Source: Zancudomyces culisetae (lineage: Eukaryota; Kickxellomycota; Harpellomycetes; Harpellales; Legeriomycetaceae). Taken from it: a DNA stretch of 47,192 nt. Position numbers and translations under genes: made by a program. Location: the NCBI GenBank assembly GCA_001969505.1, contig LSSK01001557.1, positions 1-47,192 on the forward strand, read 5' to 3'. Shown here one piece after another: positions 2,990-33,269 of this stretch (its first letter is position 1; each line of letters starts with the position of its first letter). The notes below the pieces were generated by a model. That model was not told where the DNA came from. It ran no database searches and saw nothing but the letters and a program-made list of their open reading frames with translations.

Positions 2990-4076
2990 ATGGAACTCAA
3001 CTCAATTGAAATTTACCAGCAAGCAGCTGACTACATCCGATCCAAGATCCCAAAAGAAGCTGTTCCTTCGATTGCTATAATCTGTGGAAGTGGTCTGGGA
3101 GGACTAGCTGACACTATTGAAGGGGAAAGAGTAACAATCAGGTACGAGGAGATCCCAGGATTCGTCAAGAGCACAGGTATGTTTTTTTTTTGCCTTATAT
3201 GTCTTCCCAACTGTGGGGGTTTTTTTCCTTTTGAAAATCCACAGCTTGGCTTATATCCTTTGAACAAGATAATATCATTGTGAAAAATAATAAAAACGTG
3301 ACAAAAAAAATTTTTTTATCAATGTAACTGAATTAGTCGAGGGTCATGCCGGTCAGTTGGTCTTTGGAGCCCTCTCTGGTAAACGTGTAGTGATAATGCA
3401 AGGCCGCTTCCACTCATACGAAGGATTCCACCAAAAACATGTTGTACTCCCAGTCAGAGTTTTTAAACTCCTTGGTGTAGAGACATTAATTGTAACAAAT
3501 GCAGCTGGTGGCCTCAACCAGGAATTCAATGTTGGTGACGTGATGTTGTTGAATGATCACGTTTCACTACCAGGACTTGTGGGAGTAAACCCACTTGTTG
3601 GAAGAAACATCGATGAGTTCGGTGCACGATTCCCAGCTGTAAACGATGTCTACTCTCTTGAGCTTCGTAAGGTTGCAGTTCGTGCATGGTTGGACAACCC
3701 ATACTTGGTTAATGAACGCAAGTTGGTTCTCCGTGAAGGTACTTATGCATGGATTGTTGGTCCTTGCTATGAAACTGATGCTGAATGCAGAATGTTGAAC
3801 AAGATGGAGTGCGATGTCGTTGGAATGTCAACTGTTCCTGAAGCAGTCATTGCCAAGCAGTGTGGGATGAAAGTACTCGCATTTTCCTTGGTTACCGACA
3901 TTGTTAAATATGGATATCCCGCAAGAGCTCTTGATATTGTTAGAGATGAAAGAGCAGGAAAGGAAGTAGCTAAAGTCAAGGTCGCCGAGACAACCCACGA
4001 AGAGGTATTGGCTGCCGCCGCTGCTCGTGCCCTTGATCTCCAGATCTTGGTTAAGGATATTGTTGCCAACATTTAG
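2990..4076 (+). CDS. PNP1: Purine nucleoside phosphorylase, two exons
   Basis: Phosphorolysis of purine nucleosides to free base and ribose-1-phosphate in purine salvage; cytosolic. Exons are 2990-3176 and 3337-4076. The intron (3177-3336) has donor GTATGT and acceptor TTAG and rejoins PGFVKST-G/V-EGHAGQLVFG. The product is 308 aa, matching the trimeric PNP family (yeast about 311). Motifs: phosphate loop GSGLGG (residues 33-38), GRFHSYEG (Arg and His of the phosphate/sugar site), TNAAGG, YETDAECR with the purine-binding Glu, GMSTVPE, and the late HEEVL His. The residue equal to human Asn243 is Asp250 (LVTD, codon 3897-3899), where yeast and human PNP have Asn; this could shift base preference. 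A diverged tandem copy lies 1.8 kb downstream. The start is the first ATG after the TATA box, in context AACAATGG. Confidence 0.95.
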
Positions 4077-5867: not shown

Positions 5868-7001
5868 ATGATTGAGAAACTAGACGAATCACAGATTGAA
5901 GAGACACGCAAGTATATTGTCGACAAACTACCCAAAGGTTTTGTCCCAAAGATTGCCATATTAAGCGATGTTGGAATGAAAAACATTATGGAGTATACGA
6001 AGGATACTACAGAGTTGCTGTTTTCCGAGATACCAGGGTTTGTCCAAAGTACAGGTAATGTGATGATCATATTACAAGCAACTCAAAATAACAGAAAAAC
6101 AAAAAAAAGATGTTAATAATTAAAATGGGGAATATGTCTTTAAAAAAATAGTTCTTACAAAAAGCCCCGCCAAGGTAGTATTCGGTACAATTAGTGACAC
6201 AAGCGTGGTTATACTCATTGGAAGATGTCGCTTTTATGAGGGATATACGCTACGACAAATCACTTACCCTGTGAGAGTGCTCAAAACTCTTGGCATAAAA
6301 ATAATGATAGGTAAGTGTTGGTTTGTTTTTATGAATGAAAAACCCAGTGGAGCAACTGCGCTACCCTTTTGTATAAAGGCTCGAATAAACGTAAAAATAA
6401 ATGAATAGTATTGAATGCCTCAGCGTCGCTGAATCCAGACATCAAGATAGGCGATATCGGAGTAATTGAGGACAGCATCTCATTGCCTAGCATTAGTGGT
6501 ATTAACCCTCTTATTGGACCAAACTACTCACAAATGGGACCCAGGTTTATAAATATGACTGATGCATATTCGTTTAGACTTCGGAAAATGCTTTTCAAGA
6601 CCTGGCTGTCCTCACCCGAGCTGCAAAAGCGAAAGATGTCTCTTCGCGAATGCATTTACTGCTTCACACCAGGCCCAGCCAATGAAACTAGGGCGGAATA
6701 TAGAGCCATGCGTATGCTAGGTGGTGATGTTGTGGGTTCAAGTACAATCCCCGAGGTTGAAGTTGCACGCCATTGCAATCTAGAAGTTCTCTGCCTCAGT
6801 CTGGTGACCACCTCTGCGACTGACGAAAAACTGCCTTCTGCTTATGATGCTGCCAAGGCCGAAGTGGAGGGTCGTCCTCCAAGTTTGCCGGTTGAAGAAG
6901 ATCATCTTATGACTCCTACTGGTTTTACATTTAGCAGCGCACCATCTACTCGGCTTAAAGATATGTCTTTGCTACTTGAGAAGCTCATAGGCGAAATTTA
7001 G
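5868..7001 (+). CDS. PNP-like paralogue, probable pseudoenzyme, three exons
   Basis: A diverged tandem copy of purine nucleoside phosphorylase. Exons are 5868-6054, 6152-6310 and 6409-7001; both introns (97 and 98 nt) have GTAATG or GTAAGT donors and ATAG acceptors, and splicing yields 312 aa without stops. Exon 1 is 187 nt, the same length as in PNP1, and intron 1 sits at the same codon (PGFVQST-G). Family blocks remain: LRQITYPVRVLKTLG, INPLIGPN, RFINMTDAY, NETRAEYRAMRMLG, STIPEVEVARHC. Key residues are gone: GSGLGG reads DVGMKN, the RFH His is Arg in GRCRFYEGY, TNAAGG reads LNASAS, GMSTVPE reads GSSTIPE, the Asn243 position is Thr, and HEEVL is missing. The Glu of NETRAEY is kept. Loss of phosphate binding makes catalysis unlikely; an intact frame suggests another role, such as a regulatory subunit in a mixed trimer (inference). 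Confidence 0.85.
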
Positions 7002-7526: not shown

Positions 7527-7595
7527 AAACAGGGAGCTGCATCGTTTTTTATTCTCAACAATCCTTAAACATTTTCCAATTTCTTTCCAAGCAAC

Positions 7596-10055
7596 ATGAT
7601 TGTTTCTAAGCTTTTCGAACATTTGAAAATAAATAACAAGATACTCAAAGAATTGCATGGTGATCCTTTGCAGTCAAGGAGCCCGCTCACCTTTTTGGCA
7701 GCAGAAAATGGAACAGGGGGGCTAATTAGTATAAACGAGGATAAACTCATGTTCAAGCCTCAAAAGGATCAGAGCTACAATACCATCAGAGAAAAGTACG
7801 ATGAGCTTGTCAAGCAATCGAGGACTTCTAGGCTGATATTGAGTAAAGATAAGCCACACGGGTTTTGGAGTTATGTGGTTCCCGCTTTTCAAGTTGAACC
7901 AACGTTACTTAGTTTTAACAGCGAATGTGCTTCAGACGAACTTGGTCTTGACGGAAAATACATCAACGAAAAAATAAACGAGTACAAATCTTATTTACAA
8001 AGCCAAAGAAAGGGAGAAAGTATGGATTCAGAGCTCAGCGATGACCGATCCAACCGTGAGTGTGTTATTTTTGTAAATGATTTGACGGATTTGTTGTGCG
8101 GAAACAAAGTTTTGGAAGTAAAAGATAGTAGTACAGAACAGGTTGGCGAAAGAGCAACTTTCCCATGGGCACACAACTATGGTGGTCATCAATTTGGTTT
8201 TTGGGCTGGCCAATTAGGTGATGGACGAGCAACCTCGCTGTTCCAAGTAGAGAAACCACAAAAAATGACACTGGAATCTAAAAAAACTCCACAAGATGCC
8301 TACGATATTGTTGAAGTCCAGCTAAAAGGGAGTGGGAAGACACCGTACTCACGGATGGGTGACGGATGTGCGGTGATGCGAAGCAGCATTAGAGAGTATC
8401 TGGTGGCGGAAAACCTCCATAGCCTTGGGGTTCCAACAACAAGGTCATTATCACTGGTGCTGAGTAGCAATGATGTCTATCGTGAATCGGATGAACCAGA
8501 GCATGGCGCAGTTGTCTGCCGTGTATCACCTTCATTTATTCGTTTTGGTTCGTTTGAACTTGCTAGGGTTATCGATGACAAAAACAAGAATACGGATGGT
8601 GTACGTGAGCTAGCTGATTATGTAATCAGAACGCACTATCCGTATTTGCTAAACAAAGATGAGAGCAACAATGTGGAAACCAATGAGCCTGATTTTATGA
8701 AATCGAATGTATATGCCAGGTTGTTGCAGACGATCGTTTCCAGCACAGCAAAATTGGTAGCTAAATGGCAATCCCTGGGATTCTGTCATGGTGTATTAAA
8801 TACGGATAACATGTCGGTGTTGGGGCTTACGTTAGACTATGGACCCTTTGCGTTTATGGATATTTACGATCCGGAATATATATGTAATAGTTCTGATGAA
8901 TCGGGAAGGTATTCATACAAACAACAACCTGGAATTGTATTGTGGAATTTGATGCGGTTGACTGATAGTCTTTATGATTTGATTGAAAGTGTAAACCCAC
9001 CAGAAAACACCAAAACCATTGAAGTTGTCACAAACATATTGAATACATACGGAAAGATCTATAATGATGAGTACCAAATGATTATGGTAAAAAAAATGGG
9101 CTTTTTTACAGAGCTTACGGGGCTGTATGGTGGTACTAGTGAGACTGGTGAGGCTGGTGAGGCTGGTGAGTGTACGGAGAGTAGTGAGGTGGATGGCGTT
9201 CAGAAAAAGCAAGGTAATACTGCAAATGGAGAAAAAGTCCTGGTAAAGGAACGTATAAAGGATATTTATGAAACAGTGGTAACACCATATTTGAGTTTGA
9301 TGCGGGATCAAAAAATGGATTTCACAAATTCATTCAGAAACCTAAGTAAAATAGTTGCTTTAAAATATCGCGACGGTTCTGGTAACCGACTTTTTGGAGT
9401 CGATACTAACGATGACGGATTACAAGATAAACAACAGCTAAAACATCTTCGAAATAACCTTGAAGAAATGATTATACGCTATTTTCTTTACAATAATGAA
9501 CAAAAACCCGAGAGTACCCAAGAAGACATTCAACAAGAGCTGAAAAGCCGGTGTAAAGCTGTCCTAGATTATTTTGAAGGTATTTACTTTGTTCAGTTAG
9601 AAAAATTCTACTCTTCGTGCACCCCAACCAACAATGGTCATCAATCCACAGCAGGTAAAGTTAATGCAATTGTTGGAAAACTTGATAAAACCAACCCACA
9701 ATACGTACTGCGGAACTGGATTGCAGAATATATTATTTCCAACACCAACAAGCTAATTGACGAGAATAAAGACGGTGTTAATTCCAACTATGTTGATAAA
9801 GGTGTTTTGATAGATGAGGCACTGACGTTATTAACCAAGCATGCTTACGATAACTGCGATGAGGTATACCAGAAACGCAAAGGAGACAACACAACAGACC
9901 AAGAATCGCGTTTATTTCCAAATTCGCTTCGATATTCATCTGTCAGTGCCACTATTTTCTCAGGTTCTCTAGAAAAACAAGAGCAAACTGACTTGGCTTC
10001 CAAATATGGAGGGCTAAATTCCAAGTGTAGCTGTAGCTCATGGACAACATTATAG
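7596..10055 (+). CDS. FMP40: SelO / Fmp40-type protein adenylyltransferase
   Basis: Selenoprotein-O family: a pseudokinase-fold enzyme that transfers AMP to protein hydroxyls, usually mitochondrial and linked to redox control. Single exon, 819 aa, longer than yeast Fmp40 (about 690). Diagnostic blocks: WAHNYGGHQFGFWAGQLGDG, the nucleotide-site region QLKGSGKTPYSRMGDG, MRSSIREYLVAENLHSLG, CHGVLNTDNMSVLG with metal-binding Asn, and LDYGPFAFMD with Asp. The extra length comes from an insert near residues 510-545 (GETGEAGEAGE-like, low complexity) and loop expansions. The C-terminal redox motif reads CSCSS, with Cys where animals have selenocysteine, but four further residues (WTTL) follow it. 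The CTG codon at 8454-8456 encodes the conserved Leu of TRSLSLV, supporting the standard code. No strong mitochondrial presequence is obvious. Confidence 0.93.
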   Translation: MIVSKLFEHLKINNKILKELHGDPLQSRSPLTFLAAENGTGGLISINEDKLMFKPQKDQSYNTIREKYDELVKQSRTSRLILSKDKPHGFWSYVVPAFQVEPTLLSFNSECASDELGLDGKYINEKINEYKSYLQSQRKGESMDSELSDDRSNRECVIFVNDLTDLLCGNKVLEVKDSSTEQVGERATFPWAHNYGGHQFGFWAGQLGDGRATSLFQVEKPQKMTLESKKTPQDAYDIVEVQLKGSGKTPYSRMGDGCAVMRSSIREYLVAENLHSLGVPTTRSLSLVLSSNDVYRESDEPEHGAVVCRVSPSFIRFGSFELARVIDDKNKNTDGVRELADYVIRTHYPYLLNKDESNNVETNEPDFMKSNVYARLLQTIVSSTAKLVAKWQSLGFCHGVLNTDNMSVLGLTLDYGPFAFMDIYDPEYICNSSDESGRYSYKQQPGIVLWNLMRLTDSLYDLIESVNPPENTKTIEVVTNILNTYGKIYNDEYQMIMVKKMGFFTELTGLYGGTSETGEAGEAGECTESSEVDGVQKKQGNTANGEKVLVKERIKDIYETVVTPYLSLMRDQKMDFTNSFRNLSKIVALKYRDGSGNRLFGVDTNDDGLQDKQQLKHLRNNLEEMIIRYFLYNNEQKPESTQEDIQQELKSRCKAVLDYFEGIYFVQLEKFYSSCTPTNNGHQSTAGKVNAIVGKLDKTNPQYVLRNWIAEYIISNTNKLIDENKDGVNSNYVDKGVLIDEALTLLTKHAYDNCDEVYQKRKGDNTTDQESRLFPNSLRYSSVSATIFSGSLEKQEQTDLASKYGGLNSKCSCSSWTTL

Positions 10056-13922: not shown

Positions 13923-14639
13923 TTACGCAATGCAAAGAACCATGTAGCTGCTCGAGTTCTTCTCTTTCTTGCCATATGAGAAGGTCATTCCTTCTTTCAA
14001 ATGTTGACCACACTTTCCTACAACTTGACCACCTTCATAAGCTGCCTTGGCTACATACAACGCCTCACCATCCGCCTCATGTCCTGCCTCAAGAGGTCTA
14101 AAATTGGATATACGGAGAGATCCAGTTTGCTCAACCCATCTCAATTTGCTAGCATCGCCACACAATACAAAATATTCGTTCAGTCTAACCTCTTTTCCTC
14201 CGTATCCAAAGGCAAACCCACCATCCTCGAGGTGCGGTGCGCATTTTCCAGGATGTAACCCACCCTTATAGAAAGCACGGCCTACATAAAGTGGTTTTCC
14301 GTCTCTTTCAACTCCACCTTGTACAGCATTTGGTGGGATCTTTCCATTCTTTGCAGCTACCCACTGGAATGTTACCTGTGCAGACACTGGGCCTGGAGCA
14401 CCGTACCCCGCACCGAAATTTCCACCTTGTCCGTATGGTCCTCCTGGGCCCATGCTTGGTGGGGCATGGCTCTGTTGTGGTCCTCCTGGGCCTCCCGGGA
14501 AACCTGGTCCCATACCTGGAGGATGTTGTGGTGGTCCTCCCGGGAAACCTGGTCCCATACCTGGAGGACGTTGTGGTGGTCCTCCTGGTCCTCCTGGAAA
14601 ACCTGGTCCACCTTGATTGTAATTCTGTCCTGGGTTCAT
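13923..14639 (-). CDS. DM9/DUF3421 lectin-like protein with collagen-like N-terminus
   Basis: Intronless, 238 aa. Residues 1-85 are Gly/Pro/Gln-rich with repeats like GMGPGFPGGP and HAPPSMGPGG, resembling a collagen-like or prion-like disordered arm. The rest is two DM9 repeats (DUF3421): first FQWVAAKNGKIPPNAVQGG, LYVGRAFYKGGLHPGKCAPH and LNEYFVLCG; second LRWVEQTGSLR, LYVAKAAYEGGQVVGKCGQH and SSYMVLC. Each repeat keeps the W...G.IP, LYV.RA and PGK/VGK core. DM9 pairs form small beta-rich proteins; an oyster member binds mannose. No signal peptide, so probably intracellular. A tandem paralogue lies upstream at 15867-16577. Function in fungi is not known to me. Confidence 0.85.
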   Translation of the reverse strand: MNPGQNYNQGGPGFPGGPGGPPQRPPGMGPGFPGGPPQHPPGMGPGFPGGPGGPQQSHAPPSMGPGGPYGQGGNFGAGYGAPGPVSAQVTFQWVAAKNGKIPPNAVQGGVERDGKPLYVGRAFYKGGLHPGKCAPHLEDGGFAFGYGGKEVRLNEYFVLCGDASKLRWVEQTGSLRISNFRPLEAGHEADGEALYVAKAAYEGGQVVGKCGQHLKEGMTFSYGKKEKNSSSYMVLCIA

Positions 14640-15866
14640 TTTTATATATGTCTTATTACTTTTCCTTTTGGCTCCTTAATATAATGGAACGAGATTGTGG
14701 GTTTTTAAACAAAGTATTTCTGTCCTGAAGTGAGGGATGGAGTGGGGTTGTTTATATAGAAAAGTGTGAAACCTATTTGCTCCTGGTTTGAGTTTGAATT
14801 TCATTGCATTTTTATTTTTGTCGTAGTTTACAGAATGTTCGTTTGGCATTTAACCGAAAGCTCGTTAATTTCGACCACTTATTTTTGGCATCTTGTCCAC
14901 TGTTCTTTATTTTGATGCCAACTGCTAGCTTTGCATTTTATCTCAGATATTTTTTTGGGGGGGAGGAGAAGGGGAAAGGTGCTTTTTTAATTCTCGGCAA
15001 ATGAAGGTTGAAATTGCAGTACAAAAATGATCAACAAGATTACATGATTTGGTAAATATGTAGGTTAATGCATTATTTTTATTTCAAAGAGAAAAATTCG
15101 GACTTGTGAATTTTGTAAGCGGTGAAGCGAATATTCACATGAAATTGCTAACAATGCAATTGAGCAAGAAATGAAAAATACCAAGCCAACCAACGCAGCT
15201 GTAATGTATTGCGTTGGGTTGTTCTGCTTTGTTTTCTTTTGTCAAAAACTAAACAAATAGCCTATTCTAGCAGAGGCGAAAGGAAAGGTAAGGGTGTGGC
15301 ATACGCCTCCATTACTAACAAGCAAATAAACATCACCAATTTTCACCATGGTAGCATTTTTTTTTCTTTGAGTCGAACTAAACAAGAGTAAAATTGCTTG
15401 GCATAGATATGATGAATAAGCTTTTACTTGATCGATGTACTTCGATATGATACGATGTGTATTATTATTGTGGTCTTTTTTTGACGGGACAGTGGGTGTG
15501 TTATGGAAAGAGATAATCCCATTATGGCGCTGGTTTTACTGGTTTTGGTTAAAAAGCATTTTTCACGCTAAAAAATAAACCATGACTCCGCCCCTCCATC
15601 CTCTTTTTCCTAAAGACCAATGTTATACTGCAATTAAATTTAGACCAGTTTCATATTGTCATTTTTCTAGATTACTATTGCAAACCTTTTATTTATCGAA
15701 AAGCTGAGGGTACTAGAGGTAAAACAAACTTCAACTATTATCATTTCTCAATACCTTCCCTCTTCTCAGATCAGATAAGATCATATCCACTAACCGAAAA
15801 ATAAAGAGTTACATTTTCAAAGTTAAAAAAAAAATTAAAAAAAACATAATGCGTTGAGGAATAAAG
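14640..15866. other. Intergenic between DM9 genes
   Basis: 1.2 kb without a supported gene. On the minus strand a TATATAAA-like element near 14752-14760 lies about 115 bp upstream of the first DM9 gene and is its likely core promoter. Confidence 0.45.
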
Positions 15867-16577
15867 TTAGTACAGGTGTGCAAGAATAGTATATTTTTTC
15901 TCGGATCTCTCTTTTTTAAAATACGGAAATACTATCCCCTCCTTTATATGTTCTCCACACTTTCCTATCTGATACCCACCATTGTACTCTGTCCTTGCAA
16001 TGTAAAGTGGTTCACCGCTGGCTTCATTCCCAGCCTCTAAAGGCTTGAACCCAATTATCATTAAATTACCATTCTGTTCAATCCACTTTAGTTTGCTGGC
16101 GTCGCCGCACAGTACAAAATATTTGTTTAGCTTTATCTCCTTTCCGTCATATCCAAGTGCAAACCCGCCTCCTTCAAGATGTGGACCGCATTTACCAGGA
16201 TGTAGACCACCATCGTAGAAGACTCTTCCCACATATAACGGCGTACCATCAATTTCGGTTCCACCCACTACGGCATTCGGTGGGATGTATCCATCCCTTG
16301 CAGGTACCCATTCAAACTCTGGTTTCTTACTTGCTTCCTGGTTGATTTGTACCTCTTTTGAATACGAATTACTACAGGTGTCATGCTCTGGCTCACTCTT
16401 TTCGCCTAAAACATCGTTCAAAATACCCGACTCAACACTGCCAGTAGAGTCTAAGTTTAGAGAAAGCTGTGGTATGGCTCCACTCACAGTATCTATGCGG
16501 CTTTGCGCTGAGCTTGTGACGATGGGTTGTTCAGGTATATGTCTATACTCTCTGCTTTCAAACTGCTCCAAGTTCAT
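15867..16577 (-). CDS. DM9/DUF3421 lectin-like protein, paralogue
   Basis: Intronless, 236 aa, tandem paralogue of the gene at 13923-14639 in the same orientation. Residues 1-85 are unrelated to the sister's Gly/Pro arm: Ser/Glu-rich and probably disordered. Two DM9 repeats follow: FEWVPARDGYIPPNAVVGG, LYVGRVFYDGGLHPGKCGPH and LNKYFVLCGDASKLKW, then LYIARTEYNGGYQIGKCGEH. The central region is nearly identical to the sister (FVLCGDASKL, LHPGKC, PLEAG), so the duplication joins a conserved lectin-like body to different N-terminal arms. The final repeat is more diverged, with VLC changed to ILAHLY. No signal peptide is seen. Confidence 0.83.
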   Translation of the reverse strand: MNLEQFESREYRHIPEQPIVTSSAQSRIDTVSGAIPQLSLNLDSTGSVESGILNDVLGEKSEPEHDTCSNSYSKEVQINQEASKKPEFEWVPARDGYIPPNAVVGGTEIDGTPLYVGRVFYDGGLHPGKCGPHLEGGGFALGYDGKEIKLNKYFVLCGDASKLKWIEQNGNLMIIGFKPLEAGNEASGEPLYIARTEYNGGYQIGKCGEHIKEGIVFPYFKKERSEKKYTILAHLY

Positions 16578-17598
16578 ATTTCCGATTTATTTTCACTATT
16601 TCATCCGGTTTATCCTATGTATATGTTTGTTCCTATTACCGAGTATTTTTTTTTTGGAAATGAAAAGTGTATAACGGCTATCTAGATACAAAATATAGTA
16701 TTGTCAAAATTAAAATATGCAAATAAGAGATTTAAGAAAAAGATGGAAGTGAATGGTATTTAACTAGTGTTGTGAAACTAAAATCACGACAATCTAATTT
16801 CAATACATTGTTCGAGTATTGTCTCAAACTCTCATTTGTATTTTGATGTAATCATACAAGCAAAAGTTTAAGAATAATTTAAATTCAACCCCCAAAATCG
16901 TAGTTATAATACAGTCATTCTGCGTGTTTTATAAACATACAACAAATAATATTACGTGTAAATTTGTTTTTATCATAGATGCAAACTAAAAGCAGCTTTA
17001 TTTGAATGATGGGAAAGATATTCCACTCGATTCTTTCTATTCTGCGGAGTTTTTTTTTCTCGAGTTTGCCAAATGTAAATTACGAATTAGCTTGGGTTTA
17101 CTGATCGCTTGATAGAAATAATCCATTGTAGTTATACTTCTACCTGTTATAACATGAAACTCAAGCTTTTTTCTACGCCGATTTGAAAGTGCAAAGAATG
17201 GGATTGTTTTATTTTAAACTATTTATTCCGCTTATTTAGTCCAAGTAGCTGGGGAGGCCTTTTTTTAGCTAATGCAGCTTTGGCAGTATATTTTTACTGA
17301 TTTATCATTACTAGATTTGTTAATTTGCTATATTAATTTTTATTACTGATATATAAAGTACATTTTTAGAACCAATTTTATATTGAAAATTAGATAGAGT
17401 TCTTGCCACTCCAATCAGAAAAATAGCAAAAAATGTCACAACAATAGGATAGAATTAAATTTGGTTGAAATATATTTAATTTACGTAATGTGATCAAATA
17501 TGGAAACATCAGGAAAAAATAGCGTTAGTGGAGCCTAAAATCAGCATAATTCCATTCCTCTTATCACATCACTTCAAGATTGTGGAATAGTTTTACAT
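16578..17598. other. Divergent intergenic region, DM9 paralogue / NFS1-like gene
   Basis: 1 kb of AT-rich DNA without a supported gene; the two flanking genes are transcribed away from it, so it serves as a shared promoter region. Confidence 0.45.
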
Positions 17599-19274
17599 AT
17601 GATATCAAGAATTTTGTCAGCCAAACCAGGATCATGTAACCCAAATATTTGCACCAGAAAACCAATTCAACCATGGTTGTGGGAAAGAGTTCAGGTTTAT
17701 AGGTATAGGTGTTGTATATATCGAACTTTGTGCATTTCCAAAACCACACTGGGAACAAGAAATGAGGGAGGACATTTAAGAGCGACAGAGGATTCAGTCA
17801 TGGATCCCAGAATTCTTGATGCAACATTGCCACTTTTGACAACAATCTATGGCAATCCCCATTCGCGGTCTCATGTATTTGGAAGGGAGGCTTTACGCCA
17901 TGTTGATGCTGCTAGAGAGGTAAGCTACGGTTTTCGATGCATGATAGCTGCACCTCTATACCTTTATTTACTATTTTAATTTTAAACACATTGTTGTTTT
18001 CTTGAGCTAACTGGCGAAAAAACACAAATACTTTTTAGAAAATTGCTGACTATACTGGGGCAAATGTAAATGAAATATATTTTACATCAGGAATCACCGA
18101 AAGTAACAATCTGGCAATAAAGGGATTCGAGTTTACTCAACGTAAAGAGAAAAGGGTGCTTTTAAATTCAGGTATCGACTCCAAGGGTACACAAGAAAGT
18201 TGCGAGTATCTGAAAACCAAGGGATTTTCGATAAGCACTATTCCATTGCTTGATGATGGCCATGTAGACATTGCTAAACTTGAAAAAAATATCAAACAAG
18301 GTGCATTTCTGGTTACATTCGCCGCATTGAATGGCGTTTCAGGAACCATACAACCTATCAAAGAGATAGCCGAACTCTGTAAAAATAACAATGCTGTTTT
18401 ACACTGTGACTTTTCAAAGGCTTTTGGAAGAGTCGCCTTTAATTTTAAGAACCTTGGGATAGATCTCGCCAGTTTTTCAGGAAAGGACGTATATGGACCG
18501 CAAGGTATAGGTGCATTGTATATTAGATCAGATCTAAGATCTAGTCTTCTGCCTATTGTTTCAGGAGGTGGGCAGGAAAGGGGCATGAGGAGTGGAACAC
18601 TATCACCTTTTCTGGTGGCTGGTTTTGGTGAGGCGTGTGAGCTTGCAACTTCCGAACACCATGTAAGTATACTTTCTTTTTTCAAAATCTCTTTAGGCAT
18701 CTGAACTACATGATCGATACAAAAGCTAAGGTATTAGAAATAAATGTTACGTTGGTTTCTAGATACAACAGGTAGATTACTTGTTACTGTGGTGATAAGT
18801 TTGATGACCAATAGCTGTAGGGGTTCTGACTTTTTTTTTGTTACATATAAGATGACTTTGTTCATCCAATTTGTAAACTTGGCAAGAAAAAGGCATTATT
18901 GACTAACTAAGTATAATATTTCTATTCCTTAGCATGACACGATGTTGCTAAATCAGCTTTCAAGCTATTTAGCACATAAAATGGCAGGGCGCTTTAGAGC
19001 TCCTGTTCTCTTTGAAAACACTTCATCAAAATGTCCAGGTATAGTCAGCGCACGCATTCCACAACTTGAACTTGATAAGTCTGACTGGCTTCATTATGGA
19101 GGCAATTTTCCTAGAAAGGAATTCAAAATGTACTATCCCATTTATTCCAACAGCTTTATCCAGGCCTGGTTTTGTGGTGCAAATAAAACGATCATAATAT
19201 TCCTGGGAAGATTTACGACATTTGGAGACGTCGACTCATTTATAAACCATCTCGAAACCAAGATGTACATGTAG
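17599..19274 (+). CDS. NFS1-type cysteine desulfurase paralogue, probable pseudoenzyme, three exons
   Basis: Exons are 17599-17919, 18039-18662 and 18933-19274. The introns have GTAAGC and GTAAGT donors, CTAAC branch sites and TTTAG/CTTAG acceptors, all in phase 0. The spliced product is 428 aa. Similarity to NFS1/IscS covers the length: MDPRILDATLPLLTTIYGNP, HSRSHVFG, TSGITESNNLAIKG, YGPQGIGALYIR, SGGGQERGMRSGTLSPFLV and LGRFTTFGDVDSFI. Catalytic parts are missing. The PLP-lysine motif SGHKIYGPKG reads SGKDVYGPQG, so the Lys site is Asp257. The TEHK His motif reads GIDSK, NNEIG reads LNGVSG, DAAQAVG reads DFSKAFG, and the mobile SGSACTSA cysteine loop is replaced by unrelated sequence (YYPIYSNSFIQAWFCG). 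Desulfurase activity is therefore unlikely. Frame and splice sites are intact, which suggests selection for another role. The N-terminal 50 residues are basic and may target mitochondria. Confidence 0.85.
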
Positions 19275-19613
19275 TTTCATCAATCTTTATAAGGCCAATT
19301 CGAACATGTTTAGACATTGAGCGGATATTCTGACTTTTTTTCATTTGAGTGGAGGGAACAGTACTTATTTTTATGAGATTACTAGTAATTTTGTCTTATT
19401 TGCCAAAATTCGTTTTTTAAATGAAATAAATGAGCTTTTTATACTGAATTCAGATAGATATAAATATATAGTACGTTTAAATAGAAACCAGGAATTAGCT
19501 GGTTTCTGCTTCGTCGGTCAATTCCGCGCTTGTGATTAGACTTTTTCACTCTTTTCGATCACTTTCCCTTGGCTATGCGCTCAAGTCATGGTTTTTAGGA
19601 TCAGTCGAGAAAA
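19275..19613. other. Convergent intergenic region
   Basis: AT-rich; holds the 3' UTRs of the NFS1-like gene and of the Cys-rich gene. No separate gene is supported. Confidence 0.4.
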
Positions 19614-19922
19614 TCAGTAAACAATGTTCACGTTGATTCTGATAACTTCAGAAAAATCTTTGTTGGGCTTCTTCTCTTTCTCTTTCTCTTTCTCCTCCTT
19701 TTTCTCTTTTTTCGCAACATGAGTGTGTTCACAGCTACACCAGTCATACCTCCATCTGCACCCTTCACATGTGTCAGATTTTTTTACTATAGATGACTCC
19801 TTTGGCTTTTCATCTTTATGGTCGTGGCCATACCCACAACAGTCATAATGGCAGCTCTTGCAATGGTTTCTATTGAAGGGTGAGCATCCATATCCTTGGT
19901 GGCCCCAGCATTCAAAGCACAT
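19614..19922 (-). CDS. Small Cys/His-rich protein, unknown function
   Basis: A 102-aa open frame with 11 Cys and 7 His in the first 68 residues: C2-x2-C5, C21-x2-C24, C28-C29, C52-x2-C55 and C62-x-C64, interleaved with Gly, Tyr and His. The layout suggests a metal-binding (zinc or copper) domain, two CxxC-rich halves split by a Lys/Glu linker. Residues 70-92 are Lys/Glu-rich (KKEEKEKEKEKK), probably a charged helix, followed by a hydrophobic end (VIRINVNIVY). No signal peptide or membrane segment. I recognise no family. A TATA element lies about 180 bp upstream. The dense Cys pattern over a continuous frame makes a chance ORF unlikely, but it could be lineage-specific. Confidence 0.6.
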   Translation of the reverse strand: MCFECWGHQGYGCSPFNRNHCKSCHYDCCGYGHDHKDEKPKESSIVKKSDTCEGCRWRYDWCSCEHTHVAKKEKKEEKEKEKEKKPNKDFSEVIRINVNIVY

Positions 19923-21680
19923 TTTCTATTTCTGTATTTTATTTATGCTAAAAAGATGATAATGGTGTAAAAATTTGACCCAAAACAAGTTCGACTAGTA
20001 GGAATGTTGTATCTAGCAATGGTGACTTGTGTAATACCTTTCTTTGTGTAAATGCTACTTTTTCTTGAAGTAGGCATGGATTCAGAAGGGCGGATACCCC
20101 TTTTTATATCCAAGTGCGAGCATAATTTCCCACAGTTTCACATACATATAGCTATGCATTTGGCTTTTACCAGATTATACTCTAATTTAACACAAACGTC
20201 CTGAATGCTAGTGAACCATCTGCGTATTCACAAAACAAACATATCTATGGTTTACTAAAATCACAAACTTGAATTTTGGTGATTAATGTCTAATATTCAA
20301 GGTTGATCATCAGTTCAATTAAAAAGGTGCATTTTTATGTAGGGTTTGACAACCAGAATTTCCAGTAATTTAACCACCATTAGTGTTTAGCTAATGGTGT
20401 AGATAAAACCATAAAGCTCCTTTTTTAAATAGAATAAGAATAGTAAAAGGATAATGGGAATCATTGATTTTCTTTTAAATCCTAAAAGGTGTTTCGGCTA
20501 TACTACCTTAAATCCATTCAAAAATTCTATCAATTTCAACTAGCTGATTTTTTAATACAAAAAATTATCTTATTCAGTTTGCCATTTTTGATTGAATTTT
20601 CTATTAACACAGTATTCAATTAATACGAGTACACATACATGTGATTTATACATGACTTAATTGTAGTGTATATTTCAGATAGGGTACAAACTGGTTGTTT
20701 AAAAAATGCGTACTCCCAGTAGCAGACTTTGATAGCGGTATCCAAATTGATTCACTGGCAGTGTTTACAACAAAACACTTGCTATTATACACCAGTAAAA
20801 AGAATCTTTACCAAACAGTATCCTGTGTGGTATCACAAAAACTTCAAACATTGGTCGTCTATATGAAGTGGTATCCTCTCTACTCACTCTTTTTCAATAA
20901 CTCAGCGATCCCATAGCTGGCTGGACATGTCACTGAAATATGTGTTACATCGAATATAACACAAATGTGACGCTCCTTTTTACTACAAACTTCACTCTTT
21001 GTAAAACACACCCAATGGATCAGAAAGAGAGAAATGTTTTTGGATGCACAATGATTTTAGTGAACGTGTGAGTTTCTAGTCGGATAGAACACGAGATGTC
21101 GAATACTTGATTAAACTGACAAAAAAACATGCAGGGATGGAAAAAGAAGAGGAAGAAAGATGGTTTTTGTATTGAAAAAGATAGAATTGTAAACTACAAA
21201 AATACTACGACATAGTTTAATTCTACAAAAAAGCGTAGATTCATTTTCAACTGGTTCGTAGTAATGTTAGTATACTATCATCAAATCCGACAGATTTCTA
21301 TTTTTGTGAATCTTCATAGATGGTGTATCCAGCAGTCTACATTGTTCAATGTTGTAAGAACATGATTCCACAACTTTAAACAATTTTATGCAGTGTTGTA
21401 GGAGTAGAACTCCAGTAAAAACACAGCTACAAACAGGCAAGATTGAATGTACCAAACTGCGACCGATGAGTTGAGTACATCCAGACTTACATGTTTACTT
21501 TCAAATAAAAGCAAATGTAAATGCGATTGCTGGTATTAAGATAGTATAGACCACTCAGTTATCAGTGTATAATTTGTGCACACAAAAGTACGCGTTCTTG
21601 TATAAAACAAAGAAAAAGCATGGCAGAATTTAGATTGAAAGACAGTGCAAAGCATCCAGTCGTATCTTTACAAATCAGTT
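19923..21680. other. Intergenic, Cys-rich gene to OXLD1-like gene
   Basis: 1.75 kb of AT-rich DNA. TATAAAAA on the minus strand (20108-20101) is the likely core promoter of the Cys-rich gene. The frames at 20695-20916 and 21267-21455 show no family features and are not called. Confidence 0.45.
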
Positions 21681-30625: not shown

Positions 30626-31619
30626 TTTGTATTTTGTACTTTTATTATAAAATCTTAATAAAGGAAGGAGAAAGGGGGAAGGGAAGTGAAGATCTGATAG
30701 TAAAATTGTTAATTTGATTTAGTAACAAGTATATACAACAAACAGTTATTATAACCGATAGTATATATTTTTTTGATTTTAAATTATTTTTATTATTTTT
30801 TATTTTTTAGTATTTTTTTTGTAGTTGGTATTCAACTTTGTATATTACACGTATAATATAATTATATAACCACGTAAAAATGATTTCCACTCAATTTTCT
30901 GGTTCTTTTTTTTTTTGTCTTTTTTTTTTTTTTGGCAAAACTCTCTCTTTTTTACTCTCCCAAAAATATATAAAAAATTTTTTAATATTTTTACTCGAAT
31001 TTTTGAGTCATAAAAGTTGTATTACTTTTCAACAAATTGGTTGTAGGTAGAGTTATTTGGACAGAAAGAAACCAAATAATTTCTCCCTCTCTCCTTTCCC
31101 CCACACCTCCCTCCTACACCTTCCTACATCTCCCTCCTACCCCCCCAAAACATTAACTTGATGATCTCTAATAAAATCTAAAAATTAATAAACAAAAAAA
31201 CTTTAAAGCGTAAAGTGAAAAGCGAAAAAAAAAAACAATCGAAAAAAAAAATTTTTTTTTCCTTCTTTTGACCTATAAAGGACACTAACTATTGGATCAC
31301 CATGATTTTATTTCCGCAATTCGCAAGCATTTTGCAGGTAAAAAAGAAAAAAAAAATTTTTTTTATTATTGTTTTTGGTAAACTTTAAAAAGCTTACACA
31401 AGATAGGGTAGATAGAGAAAGTGTGTGTATGAATTGAGTGAGCGAGTTAGCGAGTGAGTGTGTAAGTGTGTGTGTAAAGGTTTTTTTTTTTCAACAACTT
31501 GTATATCCAATATTTTGTAAAGCAAGAAAATAAAAAACTCTTTAATAGAAAATTATTTAAATAAAAAAAACACTTGAAATCAAAACATTCGAGAGAAAAA
31601 AAAAAGGCTATAAACAAAA
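30626..31619. other. Divergent intergenic region RPB10 / SSZ1
   Basis: 1 kb, very AT-rich, between divergent RPB10 and SSZ1. It carries several A-tract/T-tract palindromes: A6T6 near 30972-30983, A10T9 at 31242-31260 and A10T8 at 31347-31364. No gene. Confidence 0.5.
31242..31364 (+). promoter_or_regulatory. Paired A-tract/T-tract elements upstream of SSZ1 (RRPE-like)
   Basis: A10T9 (31242-31260) and A10T8 (31347-31364) lie about 360 and 256 bp upstream of the SSZ1 ATG. The core AAAAATTTT matches the rRNA-processing element bound by Stb3 in yeast ribosome-biogenesis promoters. A similar pair precedes NAN1. The reading as RRPE is inference; long poly(dA:dT) tracts also exclude nucleosomes by themselves. 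Confidence 0.4.
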
Positions 31620-33269
31620 ATGCAGGAAAGAGTAAATGTATATGTGGGTATAAGTCTTGGAACATACAATACCGTGATTGCGATAAGCGATCGGGAGGGA
31701 GACAGCCACGTAATAGCCAACAATGATGGAGAGCACAAAACACCATTGTATATAGGAATCACCAAAGACCATGAGGAAGAGGAGGGGCACGAAGAGGAAG
31801 TGGTATTCGGAAGTCAGGCCAAGATCCAGAGCGCTTATAACAGTGGAAACACAGTAGTGAAGTTTAAAGATTACTTGGGAATAACAGAGAAGGAGGCCCA
31901 AGACGCAGCTATTGAGAAAGAAAGCAAGAGTGTGTTTTGTAAATTGCAAAGACTTGCAACAACAGGGGAGCTAGGATATACGATCAATGGAAAGGAGTAC
32001 ACAGTATACCAAATAATGAAGGAATATATTGACAACCTTTACAAGGTGGTAACAAAGTATATAGGAGAAACCAAGAAGATCGCAGGAGTAGCAATCTCAG
32101 TCCCAAGCTACTTTAACAGTAAGCAAAGAGAGCAGATGCAACAGCTGTGCAAGGAGTTGGATATTCCAAACGCACAATTGGTTGACGAGCAGACAGCAGG
32201 AATAGTCAGCAGCACTAGAGGACAAAAACTGTTGGCAGCAGACAAGGAATACACCAAGAACGTACTTGTTGTAAATGTGGGAGGAACAAAGACAGCAGTT
32301 AGTATTTACACAGTAGGCGAGTTGGTGAGCGAAATCGGAACAGTGGTCACTGACAAGGTTAGTGGAGAGGAGTTTGACAAGGTGTTGACAAACTACTTGC
32401 ACAAGCAACCACCAACATCAACCAGAGCCACAATCAAACTGCAACATTCAGTAGAAAACGCCAAGCACACACTTTCGCTCTCAACCACAGCACATTGTTT
32501 TGTTGAGGCACTTGACAACGGAGTCGATTTCTCAGCAAACATTACCAGAGTAAGATTTGATTTGCTATCTGCCAAGCTGTACACCCAGCTCATTGACACA
32601 ATCGACACACTATTGCAATCATACAGCTACAACAGATCAGAAATAGACTCAATTGTTTTGCTTGGAGGAAGTTGTAAAATCCCCAAATTGGCCAACAGAG
32701 TCAAGGCTCTGTTCCCTTACGCCTCAGTTTCAACAGCAACCTCCTCCCAAAATGCTGACTCTGGCTCTGGCTCTGGCTCTGGCTCTGGTAAAGGAAAATC
32801 TCACAGCATCGAATGTGACGAGGCTATTGCCATCGGCTCTTCCAAACTGGCCGCATACAACGACCACAACCCCGCCATCTCTGCCCGCTCGTCGCCTTCT
32901 TACCCAATTGGTCTGAAGCTTGCCGACTCCTTGTTCCATCCTCTGGTCCCAAGAAACTCTCCACTTCCATTCGTCAAGAAGTTCTCCTTTGCCATCCCCA
33001 AGAACGGCGCCAACCACCACTTTGCCGTCTGCAAAGGTTCATTGTACCAGCCTCCACACTCTGAATCCGACGATGAAGATGACTCAGCTGAGGATAACTC
33101 TTCCGCTCCCCGCTACGTCCCCGATTCATCTGCTCCTCTAATTGCTGAGTTCTCTGTTCCTTCATCCTCCGATTCAGATACTGACAATGTTGACCTGACT
33201 GTCTTTATATCTTCATCTGGAAAACTTGAATTCAAAGTCGCTTGCAACGACCAAGACATCTCGTTGTAA
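31620..33269 (+). CDS. SSZ1: Ribosome-associated Hsp70-like protein Ssz1
   Basis: Atypical Hsp70 of the ribosome-associated complex; with the J-protein Zuo1 it stimulates Ssb at the ribosome exit tunnel. Intronless, 549 aa (yeast 538). The N-terminal actin-like ATPase domain has GISLGTYNTVIA, VPSYFNSKQREQM, DEQTAGIV, VVNVGGTKTAVSIYTV and IVLLGGSCKIPKL. The canonical DLGGGT phosphate-2 motif reads NVGGTK, as expected for a degenerate Hsp70 that does not need ATP hydrolysis. A (SG)n-rich linker near residue 380 and an acidic stretch (ESDDEDDSAED) surround a shortened substrate-binding domain, as in Ssz1 and unlike normal Hsp70. Codon choice shifts from purine- to pyrimidine-ending along the gene. 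Only 11 bp separate its stop from that of the convergent gene. Confidence 0.93.
   Translation: MQERVNVYVGISLGTYNTVIAISDREGDSHVIANNDGEHKTPLYIGITKDHEEEEGHEEEVVFGSQAKIQSAYNSGNTVVKFKDYLGITEKEAQDAAIEKESKSVFCKLQRLATTGELGYTINGKEYTVYQIMKEYIDNLYKVVTKYIGETKKIAGVAISVPSYFNSKQREQMQQLCKELDIPNAQLVDEQTAGIVSSTRGQKLLAADKEYTKNVLVVNVGGTKTAVSIYTVGELVSEIGTVVTDKVSGEEFDKVLTNYLHKQPPTSTRATIKLQHSVENAKHTLSLSTTAHCFVEALDNGVDFSANITRVRFDLLSAKLYTQLIDTIDTLLQSYSYNRSEIDSIVLLGGSCKIPKLANRVKALFPYASVSTATSSQNADSGSGSGSGSGKGKSHSIECDEAIAIGSSKLAAYNDHNPAISARSSPSYPIGLKLADSLFHPLVPRNSPLPFVKKFSFAIPKNGANHHFAVCKGSLYQPPHSESDDEDDSAEDNSSAPRYVPDSSAPLIAEFSVPSSSDSDTDNVDLTVFISSSGKLEFKVACNDQDISL

Follow-up and report, generated by a model that had tools for sequence, protein, structure and literature searches.

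A putative pseudoenzyme of the cysteine desulfurase family in the insect-gut fungus Zancudomyces culisetae

Gene structure and coding potential

We analyzed a 47,192-nucleotide stretch of DNA of Zancudomyces culisetae (GenBank assembly GCA_001969505.1, contig LSSK01001557.1, positions 1–47,192 of the forward strand; hereafter, the window). This species is a harpellalean fungus that lives in the guts of aquatic insect larvae, including those of mosquitoes (PMC12611240). A predicted protein-coding locus at positions 17599–19274 (+) encodes a distant relative of the cysteine desulfurase NFS1, designated here pseudo-NFS1, in which most of the active-site positions that we mapped are altered. The gene consists of three exons with 428 codons and a stop, and its frame is open throughout, as proposed in an earlier note on this DNA. 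Exon 1 (17599–17919, residues 1–107) is followed by a 119 bp GT-AG intron (17920–18038) and by exon 2 (18039–18662, residues 108–315), which contains the large pyridoxal phosphate (PLP)-type domain and is 43% identical to the organism's own NFS1. A second GT-AG intron of 270 bp (18663–18932) precedes exon 3 (18933–19274, residues 316–428 and the stop), which aligns as a degraded small domain without the C-terminal ISCU-binding tail and is 19% identical to the organism's own NFS1 over 110 aligned codons. Both introns are credible because the alignment with NFS1 crosses the two exon junctions within gapless stretches. Neither a broken frame nor a broken splice site, the hallmarks of a pseudogene, was found. 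Codon usage, scored with seven frames of the window as the training set, was coding-like in exon 2 (z 4.3) and weakly so in both residues 56–107 and exon 3 (z 1.9 for each), and homology to NFS1 begins near residue 59.

Relationship to the canonical NFS1

The genome assembly (23.1 Mb, 859 contigs) also contains a separate canonical NFS1, an intact copy whose presence the earlier note had suggested checking. It lies on contig C22 (4982–6082) as one open frame of 441 amino acids from the first Met and is 100% identical to a Z. culisetae protein, the next best match being 71% identical. Judged from sequence, it is the active sister of pseudo-NFS1. Its best local match to pseudo-NFS1 covers residues 59–354 (126 of 302 positions identical, 42%; 227 bits), which bears out the NFS1-like alignment described earlier. 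Pseudo-NFS1 has the aminotransferase class V fold. Exon 2 alone scored 145 bits against Pfam PF00266 (cut-off 21.5); exon 3 alone matched no Pfam family at E 0.001. In exon 2, 61 of the 73 columns that are always hydrophobic in the family are still hydrophobic, and core positions are retained in all three exons.

A neutral pairwise ratio (omega = 1) between pseudo-NFS1 and the organism's own NFS1 was rejected, and a neutral phase can account for at most ∼10% of the residue changes. Through the greater part of its divergence, pseudo-NFS1 has evolved under coding constraint. With its frame and introns intact, its hydrophobic core kept and omega = 1 rejected, the gene is not a product of simple decay.

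Searches of the same genome for partners of NFS1 gave one match for ISCU, two exon pieces on contig C10 for frataxin and 10 matches for LYR-domain genes, some of them on paired contigs. No second allele or copy of pseudo-NFS1 was present among the eight matches in the genome, which comprised the window, the NFS1 on C22 and distant class V genes. The canonical NFS1 is a single open frame, whereas pseudo-NFS1 has two introns. One class V aminotransferase gene was found with equal score on two contigs (C295 and C54); the C295 frames read VGHK and GRGSACHSG and resemble selenocysteine lyase. Other class V matches were also paired (C50/C113 and C244/C405), suggesting duplicated or allelic contigs.

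Loss of catalytic residues

We mapped 11 active-site positions using the numbering of IscS, anchored on Lys206; the choice of residues was based in part on PMC9978102. Seven of these positions are altered in pseudo-NFS1: His104 to Ser155, Asn155 to Gly206, Gln183 to Lys234, His205 to Lys256, Lys206 to Asp257, Cys328 to Phe374 and Arg354 to Ile403 (IscS to pseudo-NFS1). The equivalents of Thr76, Asp180, Ser203 and Thr243 are kept. Conservation was counted in the organism's own NFS1 and 118 retrieved sequences (P0122–P0239, with P0029 left out). The Schiff-base Lys and the catalytic Cys are each present in all 119 rows and are replaced here by Asp257 and Phe374, respectively; among the 193 positions conserved in at least 95% of these sequences, 87 are kept and 106 lost, 17 of the losses being gaps.

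Several of these changes had been recognized in the earlier note and were confirmed by alignment. The PLP-stacking His is Ser155 (18180–18182, +), and the SGHK motif reads SGKD (18477–18488, +), with Lys256 directly before Asp257. The GGGQERGMRSGT loop (18564–18599, +), which includes Thr294 (IscS Thr243), is fully kept, and Asp231 (IscS Asp180) is retained next to the Lys234 substitution (18408–18419, +). The note had further described the SGSACTSA loop as gone. The motif is indeed lost, but the loop was not deleted: it is replaced residue for residue by YGGNFPRK, with Phe374 at 19107–19109 (+), and a six-residue deletion lies just upstream. The deletion and Phe374 were located in an alignment of 36 proteins chosen from 239 returned; one further set also had 36. 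Losses beyond those listed in the note are the equivalents of IscS Asn155, Gln183, His205 and Arg354, along with the greater part of the RRxPRVR patch and the entire C-terminal tail.

In IscS, His104, Asp180, Gln183, Lys206 and Cys328 are described as indispensable for activity (PMC9978102), and only Asp180 among these five is kept in pseudo-NFS1. Because four indispensable residues and seven of the 11 mapped positions are changed, catalysis by the NFS1 mechanism appears very unlikely. PLP bound as the usual internal aldimine and the usual cysteine persulfide are predicted not to be possible in this protein, which would make pseudo-NFS1 a pseudoenzyme derived from the cysteine desulfurase family and not a functional member of it.

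Alternative splicing that restores the missing motifs, which the earlier note had named as evidence against its proposal, was also considered and seems unable to do so. The SGHK site falls within exon 2, and a six-frame scan of 17000–20500 for SGHK- or SGSAC-like strings returned a single out-of-frame SGNK at 18110. We likewise rejected the idea that the Cys loop survives in another frame: among the matches listed, the other tblastn pieces of NFS1 in the window were either weak (E of at least 0.016) and outside the gene or on the minus strand (18989–19069).

Partner-binding surfaces

Contacts of human NFS1 (PMC5668364) were mapped onto pseudo-NFS1 through a vertebrate row in which Lys258 and Cys381 agree. 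Of the five side chains named as touching ISD11, four remain (Arg71, Asp74, Glu313 and Phe409); the fifth, Tyr317, is His316. Arg71 and Asp74 lie in helix alpha1, PRILDATLPLLTTIYG (residues 70–85; 17806–17853, +), which is identical to the organism's own NFS1 at 10 of 16 positions. Phe409, in the conserved GRFTT motif (19206–19220, +), corresponds to human Phe413, the center of the NFS1-ISD11 interface (PMC5668364). At the ISCU-contact positions (360–371, 403 and 432–455), only one of 37 is the same as in the organism's own NFS1 and 30 are gaps; two of 37 are the same when the vertebrate row is used as the yardstick. The RRRPRVR patch reads RSDLRSS (18525–18545, +), and two of the three arginines that bind frataxin or ferredoxin are lost. 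We placed the ferredoxin-contacting arginines with the help of yeast Lys299. In yeast NFS1, these arginines are in contact with ferredoxin, and the ferredoxin and frataxin sites overlap (PMC8888459).

The earlier note had proposed NFS1, ISD11 or frataxin as partners of a catalytically dead paralog. With four of five ISD11 contacts and the core kept, NFS1 or ISD11 may still be a possible partner. Frataxin or ISCU as a partner is argued against by the residues themselves, since one of three arginines and one of 37 ISCU positions remain.

Orthologs and origin

Two protein searches for orthologs were carried out, both limited to proteins that are 0.55–1.75 times as long as the query and have exact words in common with it, so that fast-evolving or mis-annotated orthologs may escape. 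In the full-length search, 8000 candidates were scored and the top match covered 67% of the query at 44% identity; Rickettsiales IscS was among the matches listed, and no row labeled Harpellales appeared among the best 120 of 7976 matches, most of which were unnamed. The search with residues 306–428 gave no match at E ≤ 10 among its 19 candidates. A model of 235–749 amino acids for pseudo-NFS1 seems to be missing from the public Z. culisetae proteome in the database searched, because a near-identical protein would have topped the full-length search. The earlier note had regarded missing orthologs together with relaxed selection as counting against its proposal; orthologs were indeed missing within these searches, but relaxed selection does not describe the long-term history of the gene, in which omega = 1 was rejected.

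Pseudo-NFS1 has a very long tree branch (∼10 changes per column). Trees were built with 48 (49-row tree) or 32 (33-row tree) of the 239 returned proteins. In the larger tree, a starred branch (96/99) separated pseudo-NFS1 and nine bacterial-side rows from the eukaryotic NFS1 clade. Because that branch separates it from the eukaryotic clade, the designation paralog of NFS1, as opposed to relative, is unproven. In the 33-row tree (261 columns), it was placed beside Rickettsiales IscS on an unstarred branch (50/90), and none of the groupings tested by constraint was rejected: with Harpellales NFS1, the likelihood was 1.9 units above the free tree (approximately unbiased test, AU, 0.56); with all eukaryotes, 0.6 below (AU 0.49); and with Zancudomyces alone, 5.4 below (AU 0.29). 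Identity over the 261 columns was highest to Smittium simulii NFS1 (46.4%), a near tie with Ichthyophonus and P0002 (both 46.0%). Shared rare residues were within background (two found only in Harpellales and three only in Rickettsiales). The larger tree thus points toward bacteria and away from a fungal origin, but kinship with Harpellales or with eukaryotes is not rejected.

Comparison with known systems

Compared to the canonical NFS1 on C22 (441 amino acids), pseudo-NFS1 shares the fold, the 42% identity over residues 59–354, the GGGQERG.RSGT loop and the ISD11-side residues, and it differs in that the Cys loop and the C-terminal tail are gone, together with seven of the 11 active-site residues and most of the Arg patch, and in having two introns. 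The closest precedent for the change at the PLP position is IscS of Archaeoglobus fulgidus (PDB 4eb5, 4eb7 and 4hvk), which has the same Lys to Asp replacement, shows no desulfurase activity and provides a Cys ligand to the IscU cluster; IscS1 of Methanosarcina acetivorans also has no PLP lysine (PMC7585200). However, the archaeal protein retains its Cys ligand and does not accompany a fungal NFS1 as an additional copy, whereas pseudo-NFS1 has Phe374 and no ISCU-binding surface. The predicted loss is thus deeper than, and different from, that in A. fulgidus IscS, since the Cys is gone as well.

Inactive subunits that work with an active sister are known in other families. LCB1/SPTLC1 of serine palmitoyltransferase has the PLP fold but no PLP lysine, and it works in partnership with a catalytic paralog (PMC3794620). 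In trypanosomes, the AdoMetDC prozyme and the dead paralog of deoxyhypusine synthase activate their active sisters, and, according to the abstracts, both deoxyhypusine synthase genes are essential (PMC5201418, PMC3663545). Pseudo-NFS1 resembles these cases in that an active sister gene, the NFS1 on C22, is predicted in the same genome. It differs from LCB1/SPTLC1, which belongs to another PLP family, in that the heterodimer is established there and proposed here, and from the trypanosome proteins, which belong to other enzyme families, in being known from one genome. Among the papers listed, our literature search found no described cysteine desulfurase pseudoenzyme or inactive NFS1 paralog in fungi; a paper on Bacillus subtilis contains the word pseudoenzyme only within the title of a reference, and others describe different domains as catalytically inactive. 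The passages of the Harpellales genome paper (PMC5954228) that we examined do not mention cysteine desulfurase, NFS1 or pseudogenes. The earlier claim that no fungal protein of this type had been described therefore holds within that search, but there is an archaeal precedent in A. fulgidus IscS.

Other genes in the window

Two DM9-domain proteins (PF11901, 130 and 128 bits) adjoin pseudo-NFS1, at 13923–14675 (−) and 15867–16586 (−). They are 66% identical over 145 residues, and the protein at 13923–14675 has a proline/glycine-rich N-terminus. A long frame at 7569–10055 (+), which ends in CSCSSWTTL, resembles selenoprotein O. It is noteworthy because Z. culisetae has selenocysteine machinery (PMC12611240). 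A frame at 6405–7001 (+) is the second to resemble purine nucleoside phosphorylase and matches its neighbor at 3294–4076 (+) with 41% identity over 158 residues; in an alignment with PDB sequences, it has VGSSTIPE in place of the motif VGMSTVPE, and the stretch past the SLVT/SLIT motif differs. This frame may be another degenerate or inactive paralog. An Hsp70-like frame at 31614–33269 (+) has an unusual first motif, GISLGTYNTVIAI, and is possibly Ssz1-like.

Possible function of pseudo-NFS1

Given the observed fold, residue losses, coding constraint and separate NFS1, we tentatively favor the view that pseudo-NFS1 is a pseudo-desulfurase, a long-diverged NFS1 relative that might serve the NFS1-ISD11 module as a partner without catalytic activity; the partnership is the part that we infer. 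In such a role, its kept core, the alpha1 face and the GGGQERGMRSGT loop would mediate pairing with NFS1 or binding to ISD11, and the resulting complex would be unable to dock ISCU or frataxin on the pseudo-NFS1 side. The complex could modulate desulfurase activity by stabilizing, activating or dampening it, a scheme modeled on the non-catalytic paralogs of serine palmitoyltransferase and of trypanosome deoxyhypusine synthase. A more specific version is doubtful: a hetero-complex with catalytic NFS1 and ISD11 in which pseudo-NFS1 would donate the GGGQERGMRSGT loop, which would contact the PLP phosphate of the neighboring subunit, and block ISCU and frataxin on one side, serving as a half-of-sites regulator of Fe-S synthesis. 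No eukaryotic regulator of this type formed by NFS1 and a pseudoenzyme was found among the papers listed in the literature search. The human NFS1 complex occurs in three quaternary structures whose dimer interfaces differ greatly (PMC11840927).

A number of observations weigh against this proposal. Measured against a background of 45%, keeping four of five ISD11 contacts does not reach significance (estimate ∼0.13), and the mapping covered five named side chains, leaving out Arg57-Leu59 and the contacts of the second protomer. The ISD11-facing helices are kept at 21 of 67 positions versus one of 37 for the ISCU contacts (Fisher p 3e-4), a contrast confounded by the location of the ISCU sites in the eroded C-terminus. 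As the longest conserved run, the GGGQERGMRSGT loop was not significant (matched in 1380 of 20000 shuffles, p 0.069), and a special argument based on its length was dropped. The LYR-domain matches provide 10 candidates for the ISD11 gene. Residues 1–55 (17599–17763) are rich in Cys, Tyr and Arg, form a basic N-terminus as modeled (10 Lys/Arg versus one Asp/Glu) and have a codon usage that is not coding-like (z −0.2), which makes the start and mitochondrial targeting uncertain; translation may instead begin at Met68 (ATG at 17800–17802) or in an exon not seen here. The codon usage of exon 3 is weakly coding-like. In its structure model, residues 53–72 have a predicted local distance difference test score below 50, and the fold matches to NFS1, selenocysteine lyase, SepSecS and threonine aldolase lie within 1 Z of one another, all models being built on NFS1/IscS alignment rows and hence biased to that fold. 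The constrained NFS1 branch is part of the pairwise omega comparison, in which the fits for exons 2 and 3 reached the imposed length limit owing to saturated dS. To these points are added the missing orthologs, the apparent absence from the public proteome and the position apart from the eukaryotic clade in the 49-row tree.

Some of the same points suit the strongest competing explanation, that a formerly functional paralog has since come under weak selection or none and represents an early pseudogene whose frame happens to be unbroken. The lack of an ortholog in either search, the very long branch, the low identity of exon 3 with its deleted segment, the N-terminal 55 residues and a public annotation seemingly without the gene (as deduced from the full-length search) are all consistent with it. 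We consider it unlikely, however, in view of 428 stop-free codons, four intact splice dinucleotides, a core retained in all three exons, the rejection of omega = 1 and the limit of ∼10% on residue changes from a neutral phase. Next comes a PLP-free homodimer with a new binding or structural role unrelated to NFS1, perhaps outside mitochondria. Such a protein would fit a kept fold core with erased ISCU- and frataxin-facing sites, as well as the uncertain targeting and the possible start at residue 68, but it would have no need for the ISD11-side residues, four of five of which (a small number) are nevertheless kept; we regard it as rather unlikely. A neofunctionalized enzyme, with PLP bound non-covalently or through a shifted Lys234 or Lys256, appears improbable. 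It could make use of the two new lysines at active-site positions and of the kept equivalents of Asp180, Thr76, Ser203 and Thr243, and migrated catalytic residues are possible in some pseudoenzymes (review PMC10211241); however, the stacking His is lost together with Asn155, His205 and Arg354, the residue for the substrate carboxylate, and the scan of 17000–20500 revealed no alternative Cys loop. As to origin and not function, acquisition of a bacterial iscS (alphaproteobacterial or Rickettsiales-like) followed by loss of catalysis, suggested by both trees and by the Rickettsiales matches, is likewise improbable, given that long branches are expected to drop to the tree base (as the tree program warns), that the constraint tests and shared rare residues do not decide for it, that identity is highest to Smittium simulii NFS1 and that pseudo-NFS1 contains two spliceosomal introns.

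NFS1 is a central sulfur donor for Fe-S clusters. A clean pseudo-NFS1 could be put to use as a probe, but it is known from the sequence of one genome, and if it were a lone decaying copy, it would be a curiosity of that genome. As a natural relative with the fold but without catalysis or docking sites for ISCU and frataxin, pseudo-NFS1 would allow the scaffold role of the desulfurase to be told apart from its chemistry and would provide a natural probe of an asymmetric dimer.
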